Origin: Micrasema longulum
Lineage: Eukaryota > Arthropoda > Insecta > Trichoptera > Brachycentridae
Length of the DNA stretch: 64,000 nt
Direction: 5' to 3'
NCBI GenBank assembly: GCA_022494885.1
Contig: JAGVSM010004545.1
Span: 1 to 64,000, forward strand
Of the stretch, positions 8,700 to 63,480 are shown in pieces. Within the stretch, counting starts at the first letter, position 1; the number at the start of each line of letters is the position of its first letter. The notes under the pieces were generated by a model. It worked only from the letters and a program-made list of their open reading frames with translations. It searched no databases and was not told where the DNA came from. A program made the translations under genes and the position numbers.

Positions 8700-10190
8700 T
8701 TATTCTTCTTGTTCCTCTCCACGATGGAGGTTGGATATCATCGTAGCAATTCTCACTTTGTTGGCAGCTGCCCTGAACAAGAACTGAGTATTGCAATTAA
8801 ACCAGTCACGCAAGTTCTTTAGCCAAGAGATGCGCCTTCTACCTGCACTGCATCTTCTTTCAACCTTTTCCTGTAGAATAACTTGTAAAATGTTATATTT
8901 TTTGCCTCTCATCACATGCCCAAAGTACTCAAATTTTCTTTTCTTTATCGTCTTCAGTACCTTTTTATCTTTTTCCATCCGTCGAAGAAAGTCAACGTTT
9001 CGGACTCTGTCCACCCAACAGATTTTTAATATCGTCCTGTAGTACCAAATTTCAAAGGCTTCGATCTTTTTTGATGTGCTTTGGGTGAGTGTCCACGTTT
9101 CGACGCCGTAATTAAGTACTGATAAAATGTAACATTGTACAATGCCCATTCGAAGGTCTAAGTTAATGTCTCTACTACAAAGAAGGTCACGCATCCTAAA
9201 AAAGCAGTCTCGCGCCATCTCTATTCTGACTTTGATCTGTTGTGAGTGATTCCATTTATCATTCAGCCAGCATCCTAAATATTTATATTGATGGACTTGC
9301 TCAATAACCTGTGCTCCAAGTTTTAAAATCATTGGGAAAGTTTGCGGCTTTTTTCGAATAACCATACATTTTGTCTTGGAAATATTCATTTCTAGCCCTT
9401 TATTCAAATAAACCGTGTGAACTTTGTCCTACAATATCTGCAAACTTTTTATGCTATCTGCTAGGACAGTATCATCCGCGTATCGAATATTGTTTAAAAT
9501 TTCTTTATTTATGCTGATGCTGTCTGTTAGTTCATTTGGCGCATCTCTAAAAATGGCTTCCGAGTACAAATTAAAAAGGAAAGGAGACAGAATGCATCCT
9601 TGCCGGACTCCTCGACATATGTCTATGTCCGATGTTAATTCATTATCCACTTTCACTGCAGCTTTTTGATGCCCGTAGAGATTACTAATGACTATTTTTT
9701 TTTTAATTTCTAGAAGTTCTTGGTGCCGCACTTTATCAAATGCTCTAACATAGGCCATGAAATATGCGTACACATCCACGTTCATGTCGCGGCATTTTTC
9801 AACAAGAAATTAAATACAACATAAAGCTTCTCTTATACCATATCTATTCCTAAAACCAAATTGTGCTTCGCTAAAATTTTCTTCGCACTTTTTATATATT
9901 TTTCTATGAATGATTTTCAACTTTTTTTTAGAATATGGCTTATAAGGCATTGTTTTATATTCACCACAACCTTTTGCATTCACTTTTTTCCGTAAGGTAA
10001 TACATGTCGACTAAGCCATTCTTTCGGTATTACCCTGATAGCATAAGCTTGATTTAATAAAGTAACAAATATATCGATATCATTATTATTTACAAGCTTA
10101 ATTTACTCTGCAAATACTTTATTAGCTCTAGGTGATTTGTCATTTTTCATTTGGTTAATCACATTTATCACTTCCGATTTTAATAACAAA
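8700..10190 (-). pseudogene. LINE (family b) reverse transcriptase, motifs 1 to C-terminus, frameshifted
   Basis: This is the longest RT remnant in the window. From about 10190 the minus strand reads INQMKNDKSPRAN, NEAQFGFRNRYGIREA-like, then AYVRAFDKVRHQELL (motif 3), GVRQGCILSPFLFNLYSEAI (motif 4) and RYADDTVLAD (motif 5, YADD at 9471-9482). After a short frameshifted gap a 235-codon open frame (9407 to 8700) gives NISKTKCMVI, YKYLGCWL, YGVETWTLT, IEAFEIWYYR, EYFGHVMRG and SWLKNLRDW. All are in the right order for a non-LTR pol. At least two frameshifts and stops between 9786 and 10190 make it non-functional. The endonuclease domain is absent. 25512-25930 is a related but distinct family. 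Confidence 0.9.
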
Positions 10191-38040: not shown

Positions 38041-39120
38041 AATGTATGTATAAATCTATATAATATAAATAAATGTAGATAAAATCTCGTTGAGTGAAGT
38101 GTGGCAAACTTTGTTTCAGTAATACACACTTATTGATTCCACTGACATTTTTTTAGTAAAATTGTTTCTAAATATTCTCTATTAAGAAGGATGGCAGCCT
38201 GAAATAATAATTGATGGAAGAAAAAACAGGCCCATGTGTTTTCTCTTCCTTTCCGCAAAAATGTGAATGATACCGTAGACATTTTCTCTTTAAAATTAAT
38301 GAATGGTAAGTCAGCCAGAATCATAAAACAGCTTTTTCATGTTTTCATGGCTCGGTGAAGACAACTTTGTATTACGAGTATCTACGTTTTTTTCTATGGT
38401 CTAACGCGTTGGCTGTTTCACGGGAAAACTTTCAAAAACAAATTAAAATCGAATTCAATTGAGTCCGCTTTGCAGAAGTGAAAAATTTTATATTAGGTTT
38501 GGTTCTCGCCATTCTGATTTTCCTTCGTTATTTTTTAGCTCTGATGTTAACTATAAAACAAATTAATGCATTGACTGTTTAAAGGTATAAGAAAAAGTTA
38601 TTTGAATTTCATTTAGTTGATAATTTAAAAAAATCTCGTATATTTACTTTCATTTTACTTTGGTAATTAAATCCGATTATATATATAATTCATTAAATAT
38701 TTGTTTTTCTCAAAAAGGTACTTACTCTAAAACTGGTTAATTTTTAAAATATACACAGGTAATTAAAAATGTATTTTTAATGCTTAGAACAGTTACAACC
38801 CGAAAGTGTTTTAAAAAAAATAAAAAAATTATGTAAATAGAAAACTGTAATTATTTATGTAATCCACGTAAGTTAATAAAAGTAACATTTTCGTCAAAAT
38901 GAGATACTTTATCTTACCTTTTTTTGTTCAACTCTATTATCCATTTTGACAAAAACGTAATATTTATTTGACGTTTTTTTCACTGGCTTTTTACACCGTA
39001 AAAAGTTCAACGGTCAACACTAATAAAAATTTGAAAGTGTTTTATTCTAAGTAAGTTTCAAATGTTACACACTTATCTTTAAAAAAACATTTAATTGCAT
39101 ATCAAACCTTGATTTAATAC
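38041..39120. other. No recognisable transposon or gene upstream of the H4-like 3' end
   Basis: AT-rich DNA. The minus ORF 38130-38324 has no recognisable domain. Nothing here matches the repeat families elsewhere in the window, so the H4-like gene lies in what looks like low-copy sequence. Confidence 0.45.
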
Positions 39121-39126
39121 TGTACA

Positions 39127-39132
39127 TTTATT
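39127..39132 (-). promoter_or_regulatory. Poly(A) signal AATAAA for the H4-like gene
   Basis: The minus strand reads AATAAA about 197 nt past the stop codon. Together with the absence of a stem-loop ending it suggests polyadenylated, replication-independent expression, if the gene is expressed. Confidence 0.4.
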
Positions 39133-39328
39133 ACAAAAAACTATTTAACTGGACAAATTACAATAATAAAAAAAACTGAATCCCATAGGATGACACAAAT
39201 ATGTATTACATTCGATTGTTATGATTCTTATCAATTTTCACCATGAGCATAAAAACTACAGTTCTACAATGGGCGTAAATTTGAAAATAACGGCACCCAG
39301 TATTAAACATTGGAGGTAGGTAGTATTT

Positions 39329-39637
39329 TTAATGTGTTACAAAGCCACGTGTGCCTCTTCCATGACGTTCAAGGGATCTGTTGATGTCAATAGTGCTAAC
39401 CGTATTCTTTGTGGTGAATTTAGAGTAGATGACGGCGTCCCTAATGACTTTTCTTAGAAATTTCTTTAGTTCTATCTGAAATTCTTTGTATAATGGGATC
39501 ATCATTCGCCTTATCCCGGATCTTCGAGCCACACGACAAATATCTAATCGTTTTATTCTTTCAACACTGTTTCTGATCATCTTCCTGGAAGACACTGTGA
39601 TTCTTTGACAACAACCCGTTTTTTTGCAACCAGGCAT
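39329..39637 (-). CDS. Divergent histone H4-like protein, 102 aa, intact
   Basis: By family, H4 is the arginine-rich core histone that pairs with H3 in the nucleosome. Seen here: one uninterrupted frame from ATG (context aaccaacATG) to TAA. From residue 18 on it aligns with canonical animal H4 without a gap. By hand I count 33 identities in 84 positions, concentrated in RxARRxGxxR, KxFLxxVIRDAVxY, TV--D and L-R-GR--GF, which are histone-fold helices and the L1/L2 loops. Canonical H4 is nearly invariant, so this is extreme divergence. The N-tail is two residues shorter and reads PGCKKTGCCQRITVSS: the GKGGKGLGKGG pattern and most acetylatable lysines are gone, and several cysteines appear (canonical animal H4 has none). 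The Arg-Lys pair matching R19-K20 is kept. No histone 3' stem-loop is seen; AATAAA lies about 200 nt downstream. G+C is visibly higher than in the flanks. It could be a germline-type variant, an expressed retrocopy or a decaying pseudogene still open. Confidence 0.8.
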   Translation of the reverse strand: MPGCKKTGCCQRITVSSRKMIRNSVERIKRLDICRVARRSGIRRMMIPLYKEFQIELKKFLRKVIRDAVIYSKFTTKNTVSTIDINRSLERHGRGTRGFVTH

Positions 39638-39658
39638 GTTGGTTCTTCAAAATATCAA

Positions 39659-39672
39659 CTGCAAATCAAGAA
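39659..39672 (-). promoter_or_regulatory. Possible 3' splice site just upstream of the H4-like ATG
   Basis: The minus strand reads ttcttgatttgcag, an acceptable acceptor, ending 21 bases before the ATG. A 5'-UTR intron is possible. The pyrimidine tract is weak and no donor has been identified. Confidence 0.2.
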
Positions 39673-40069
39673 TGAATCCAAAAACTTGTATAATTTCAAC
39701 TATTTATCCGATGAAAAATAATTTCTTCACTTTTACTATTTAGAAACTGTCGTTATCCAGAAGTTGCTTTTGTTTTTGAAAGGAATGATTTTGTTTTTTT
39801 AAACGAGTTTTATTTGGTTATTTACAAATAGGTAGGTTTTGATTTTTTAAGGAACCTCAGTGCTACAGGAAATTGGATATAGAAAATGTTTTCTTTCACT
39901 TGGTACAAATTTTTGACAAAAGTAAAATTATTTAAAAAAATTGAAAGACGAAGTTATTCGAAAATGTGTGAAAAAATTAATAAATATACGTTTTGATAAT
40001 AATGAACTTCTTTAAAATATCATAGGTTTTGGTTAACAGCTGTTTATAACAGCCGATCATTTATGTGTT

Positions 40070-63211: not shown

Positions 63212-63480
63212 GCAAGGCAACATTCTCTTTCCAAATCTAACGGTTCATACGGCAGTGCATTGGTACACCAATTGCTGCGATCATTTTTCTTAAATAAAAT
63301 TAAGATGATCAGTCTTACGATTCAGGTACCAGTCCAGGAACTATGCAATATTCCATTGTGAAAACAATCTTGTATATAAATATTTCATATTAATCATGTC
63401 GGGAATCAAACCCGAGATCTCTTGCATGGTTGGCAAACGCTCTGACCATTACACCACAAAGCCGATTGACAGTTTATATT
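63212..63480 (-). repeat. SINE family 1, minus copy with tRNA-like head
   Basis: On the minus strand the head ggctttgtggtgtaatggtc and B-box tctcgggtttgattcccga are followed by agttcctggactggtacctg, gtaagactgatcatcttaat and accaatgcactgcc. This body matches 20649-21000. The 62-codon plus ORF (63173-63361) is incidental. Confidence 0.75.

Follow-up and report, generated by a model that had tools for sequence, protein, structure and literature searches.

The minus strand of the 64,000-nucleotide stretch of Micrasema longulum DNA analysed here (the window) contains, at positions 39329..39637, an intact open frame encoding a highly divergent histone H4. With a probability of roughly 70 %, this gene is an H4 variant of one insect lineage, of replication-independent form, which diverged under selection and was itself duplicated, the window copy remaining intact. 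The initial annotation had proposed an undescribed lineage-specific H4 variant, and that proposal is well supported by the homology, the open frame, the residues shared with two relics, the synonymous excess and the lack of a close protein match.

The frame reads from 39637 to 39329, from ATG to TAA, and comprises 102 codons and the stop without an intron. It is bounded by an in-frame TGA (39647..39649, minus strand) with three codons between this stop and the ATG, and the frame between stops begins at 39646. The gene is of full length, its frame and start are undamaged, and the CAACATG at the start fits the insect start context. The coordinates given in the initial annotation were correct, the strand, which it had left unstated, is minus, and the open 102-codon H4-like frame that it reported is real, its homology to H4 being confirmed by both phmmer and an H4 profile. 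The G/C counts that it gave for two 60-base intervals (24 in 39361-39420 and 11 in 39121-39180) were exact, but are uninformative as a sign of coding constraint or recent origin. The GC content of the ORF (39 %) means little because 9.4 % of 309-bp windows are equally GC-rich, and the argument for coding constraint from GC was dropped.

Judged by its sequence, the frame is homologous to histone H4. Against the H4 chains of the PDB, phmmer returned the window protein with an E value of 3.2e-15, and residues 17-99 align without gaps to H4 residues 18-100, with 33 of 83 positions identical, 55 identical or similar and 50 (~60 %) differing. These values agree with the identity of approximately 39 %, gapless over the fold, that had been counted by hand (33/84), and the VIRDAV motif and the Arg-rich segments pointed out at that time are present in the alignment. 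A profile built from the H4 matches of a protein-database search with canonical H4, when run against 1468 window ORFs of at least 25 aa, recovered the frame with 58.3 bits (E 6e-17), the next best ORF having an E value of 4.5, while the best of 2000 shuffled versions of the protein reached 8.8 bits. With a cutoff of E 10, Pfam gave no match to the window protein; since its match to canonical H4 is also weak (33 bits at best, CENP-T_C), the silence of Pfam says little, and the homology rests instead on the H4-specific searches. The comparison with histone profiles suggested in the initial annotation was thus positive for the H4 profile and negative for Pfam. Pfam and NCBIfam together yielded no histone assignment, the best histone row being an archaeal histone (12.5 bits, E 0.15). 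A protein-database search with the window ORF, in which by estimate only relatives of ~50 % identity or more would show, gave zero candidates having three 5-residue words in common with it. In the same database canonical H4 gave 7987 scored candidates, with insects among the matches listed, and the database therefore contains such genes.

The N-terminal tail (residues 1-16; 39590..39637, minus strand), compared with that of H4 by eye, is two residues shorter and carries three cysteines, at positions 4, 9 and 10. There is no lysine at or near K8, K12 or K16, and a counterpart of K5 exists only in a gapless alignment of the N-termini (by eye), whereas R19 and K20 are retained and the pattern M.G..K.G at the N-terminus resembles, again by eye, the start of H4. 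The earlier claim that the acetylation-site tail had been replaced was accordingly right for the most part, except for these H4-like features. The H4 modification sites used in this comparison also appear in the portion of PMC9145170 consulted. Structure prediction of single chains placed three helices in the H4 register with modest confidence when H4 rows were included in the alignment (pLDDT 62.7, pTM 0.46), and was poor for the single sequence without them (pLDDT 55.9, pTM 0.22). On the minus strand, predicted helix alpha1 (residues 30-39) corresponds to 39521..39550, predicted alpha2 (residues 47-74), which contains FLRKVIRDAVIY and is identical to H4 at 13 of 28 positions, to 39416..39499, and predicted alpha3 (residues 82-91), which carries Y88R and K91E (H4 numbering), to 39365..39394.

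The form of the gene differs from that of the clustered canonical H4 genes of this genome (loci L003 and L004), in which GGCCCTTGTCAGGGCC after the stop forms a perfect histone-type hairpin. In a direct stem search, the 300 nt downstream of the window gene's stop contained no perfect 6-bp stem with a 4-nt loop, and the hairpin was equally missing downstream of the stop of another locus, L002; because L002 is an intact canonical-type gene, the absence of the hairpin alone marks no special class. The direct search was used instead of Rfam, whose Histone3 family gave a weak match (24 bits, below threshold) after neighbouring H3 genes and missed the hairpin after canonical H4; no weight was therefore given to the silence of Rfam on the window. 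The first poly(A)-signal-like hexamer, AATAAA, lies 196 nt after the stop (39127..39132, minus strand), and a sequence that by eye resembles a 3' splice site, TTCTTGATTTGCAG, is found in the putative 5' UTR (39659..39679, minus strand), where an intron is possible. The GC3 of the window ORF is 0.38 versus 0.71 in the canonical H4 gene L003. We infer that the window gene is of a replication-independent, polyadenylated form.

The same genome was searched for related loci (584-Mb assembly, 5184 contigs, the window being contig C4321). A DNA search with the ORF gave at least three places, namely the ORF itself, C2148:6646-6748 (L005; 83 % DNA identity over 103 bp) and C2126:18784-18863 (L006; 88 % over 80 bp), and a protein search gave these three divergent-type places and three canonical-type H4 loci. 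In L005 approximately 36 codons remain, the amino-terminal half is unrecognisable and a TAA lies inside the wider match; L006 is missing 11 bases within the frame, and its final matching piece lies ~960 bp off, past a stretch with repeats that also occur in the window. The divergent type is thus represented by one intact copy, that of the window, and two broken fragments. A query with H4 gave seven places: two intact canonical-type genes (C5021 and C2570), one gene whose tail is frameshifted (C5149), three partial matches, of which the one at a contig end is possibly cut and not broken, and the window copy. The canonical H4 of the genome begins MTGRGKGG, and an intact, non-allelic divergent frame coexists with it. 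The second intact canonical-type gene (L002/L024; G000:C2570:546751-547062, minus strand) carries R3H and G41S and shares the end of its 5' UTR with the clustered H4, no H3 was found in its 3.2-kb locus, and it is perhaps a young H4 duplicate. The frameshifted gene (L004/L025; G000:C5149:145143-145439, minus strand) adjoins an H3 gene, and its frameshift represents either an assembly error or a young pseudogene.

Comparison with the two relics indicates when and how the divergence arose. The window copy has 15 non-H4 residues in common with L005 within the 36 codons 58-93 (E63R, N64K, T71I, T73S, E74K, H75F, A76T, R78K, K79N, T82S, A83T, M84I, V86I, Y88R and K91E), and 11 in common with L006 within the 27 codons 52-78, which implies that most of the divergence in the compared stretch predates the duplications. 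Among the sites that distinguish the window copy from L005, five have the H4 residue in the window copy alone and none in L005 alone; for L006 the corresponding numbers are two and two, E52 and R55 being lost in the window and kept in L006, although the alignment at E52 is uncertain, as L006 is without two codons just before it. The window copy gave an omega (Nei-Gojobori) of 0.26 with L005 (36 codons, Fisher p 0.011) and of 0.42 with L006 (27 codons, p 0.17, not significant), and the two relics gave 0.35 with each other (21 codons). The initial annotation had regarded a dN/dS near 1 with no transcription as a sign of a pseudogene or chance; the values obtained, on broken paralogues and few codons, are 0.26-0.42. 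In the comparison with the canonical H4 of the genome, differences affect 49.5 of 59.3 synonymous sites and 73.5 of 189.7 replacement sites (p 8e-10); no omega is given for this pair because its synonymous sites are saturated and also reflect changes that occurred on the canonical branch. The window gene thus appears to be under purifying selection, with significance against L005 and H4 but not against L006.

The gene locus sits among transposon remnants. The pieces of the 5' flank that match L017, L018 and L019 look like dispersed repeats, and a genome search with the 3' flank, in which very common words were skipped, gave 17 matches besides itself, all on a dispersed repeat at ~38869-38995, and the flanks were not retained as probable parts of a duplicated block. 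This MITE-like hairpin repeat (38869-38995, arms 38875-38901 and 38942-38968) is found at 17 further places in the genome with 72-90 % identity. Elsewhere in the window, two adjoining frames at 8703-9785 (minus strand) encode a LINE reverse transcriptase. For one of these frames (8703-9407), 44 of 130 candidates were relatives at E up to 1e-20; most are metagenome proteins without a name, and those that have one come from Loxostege and Parnassius (moth and butterfly), Arctopsyche (caddisfly) and Diabrotica (beetle). These relatives point clearly to an insect genome and, only as a guess, to kinship with moths or caddisflies. A marginal Rfam tRNA match (63391-63463, minus strand; 29.4 bits, threshold 29), which was not called by ARAGORN with bacterial settings, is perhaps a tRNA-derived SINE.

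H4 variants as a kind are already known, although such divergence in an animal is unusual among the cases compared. The window protein resembles the canonical insect H4 (L003) in length, gapless core, histone fold and intronless frame, and differs from it in its identity of ~40 %, its rewritten tail and the lack of a 3' hairpin. In the parts of the sources considered, animal variants range from three changed residues in the testis-specific H4t of Oikopleura dioica (PMC3156773) to ~15 percent in human H4G (PMC10878826). Like the window protein, H4t is a metazoan sequence variant with V21 and L22 changed, but only three of its residues differ, compared with 50/83 core residues here. The variants listed in the consulted text of PMC10878826 include H4t, a bracovirus H4, human H4G and T. 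brucei H4V; H4G, TbH4V and the ascomycete H4E likewise coexist with canonical H4, but H4G (85 %, shared part) and TbH4V (80 %) are much closer to their own canonical H4 than the window protein, which diverges through the fold as well. Drosophila His4r also lies apart from the histone cluster, but its product, according to PMC7921661, is identical to H4. No insect H4 of a comparable kind was found presented in the open-licence literature searched, mostly by listing.

Several other origins of the frame may be considered. It is hardly credible that a processed or duplicated canonical H4 pseudogene decayed neutrally and stayed open by chance. A frameshifted H4 and further H4 fragments do exist in the genome; however, in simulated neutral decay of H4 to the same identity (starting from an H4 sequence equal to that of the genome save for S instead of T as the second residue), the frame was open in 33 of 3000 runs and, under four settings, in 21, 29, 45 and 2 of 2000 runs (0.1-2.3 %), with point changes alone and indels not counted. 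There are also zero indels in 249 core bases despite the ~140 substitutions needed over the gene, and the synonymous excess and the derived residues common to the window copy and the relics argue in the same direction. Conservative replacements (22/50) exceed the neutral level, which reached this number in 2, 3, 0 and 0 of 2000 and 7 of 3000 runs, as do the basic residues kept (14/19; 9, 25, 13 and 47 of 2000 runs), whereas the large hydrophobics kept (20/25) are no better than neutral (456, 539, 274 and 473 of 2000 runs) and the replacements stand out less by their mean BLOSUM score (reached in 54 of 3000 runs). An integrated viral H4-like gene of nudivirus, iridovirus or bracovirus type is very improbable, although bracovirus H4 and the viral H4-H3 doublets are likewise insect-associated and H4-like, and the doublets, with 22-48 % identity, are similarly diverged. 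In the sections of PMC9145170 considered, viral H4s of such identity are described as doublets, medusavirus aside, and carry an H3 half, whereas nothing in the window matches canonical H3 at E up to 1; the bracovirus H4 is ~87 % identical to insect H4 and has a 38-aa tail extension. Phage records gave no match to the window protein, and two scans of viral_contigs confirmed no relative, the second being weak (it used two patterns only and detected no H4 of any kind).

It appears unlikely that the window gene is a pseudogene of recent date, a member of an H4-variant family that was long under selection and whose frame still awaits its first disruption. Two of the three divergent copies found are broken, so the window copy may be newly unconstrained, and its surroundings of transposon remnants are consistent with this. 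On the other hand, its length, frame and start, including the start context, are intact, and it has lost no H4 residue that L005 keeps, while L005 has lost five that it keeps.

The preferred reading, a lineage-specific H4 variant, would imply that divergence under selection altered ~60 % of the core residues of an old H4 duplicate that today lacks the histone 3' hairpin. This gene would itself have been duplicated, two duplicates dying and the window copy staying intact. The best reading is that the gene probably works now or did so until recently, with an H3-binding core largely kept and a changed tail and H2B-facing surface. The protein would pair with H3 via its histone-fold core, E74K, H75F, Y88R and K91E (H4 numbering) would lie around the face meeting H2B, and these changes, together with the loss of the basic, acetylatable tail, may produce a nucleosome-like particle with an altered or weak hold on H2A-H2B. 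A role in a special chromatin state, perhaps that of the germline, with possible cross-linking by the three tail cysteines, is conjectural, as is the use in sperm chromatin offered as an example in the initial annotation. In a tentative and rather doubtful extension of this reading, an H4 kept under selection, un-H4-like in its tail and H2B-facing surface, would join H3 in a non-canonical particle, either poor in H2A-H2B or made of H3-H4 only, in chromatin of the germline or of another special type. An H3 query of the genome scored 11 candidates and listed nine places (L030-L038; 68-100 % identical to canonical H3), among which none was CenH3-like, although a fast-evolving or intron-split CenH3 could escape such a search; a link to unusual chromosome organisation is therefore conceivable. 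The lack of a CenH3-like H3, as in some holocentric insects, is suggestive only, and PMC4359364 states that CenH3 status had not been assessed in Trichoptera.

Since every surface of histone H4 has a partner, the protein is regarded as almost immutable. The change of ~60 % of the core in so conserved a protein would be remarkable if the gene proves to be expressed. If the preferred reading is true, a selected H4 of ~40 % identity would constitute a natural experiment on the roles of individual residues, in which those required for the fold and for pairing with H3 may be separated from those that serve H2A-H2B docking, tail signalling and array packing.
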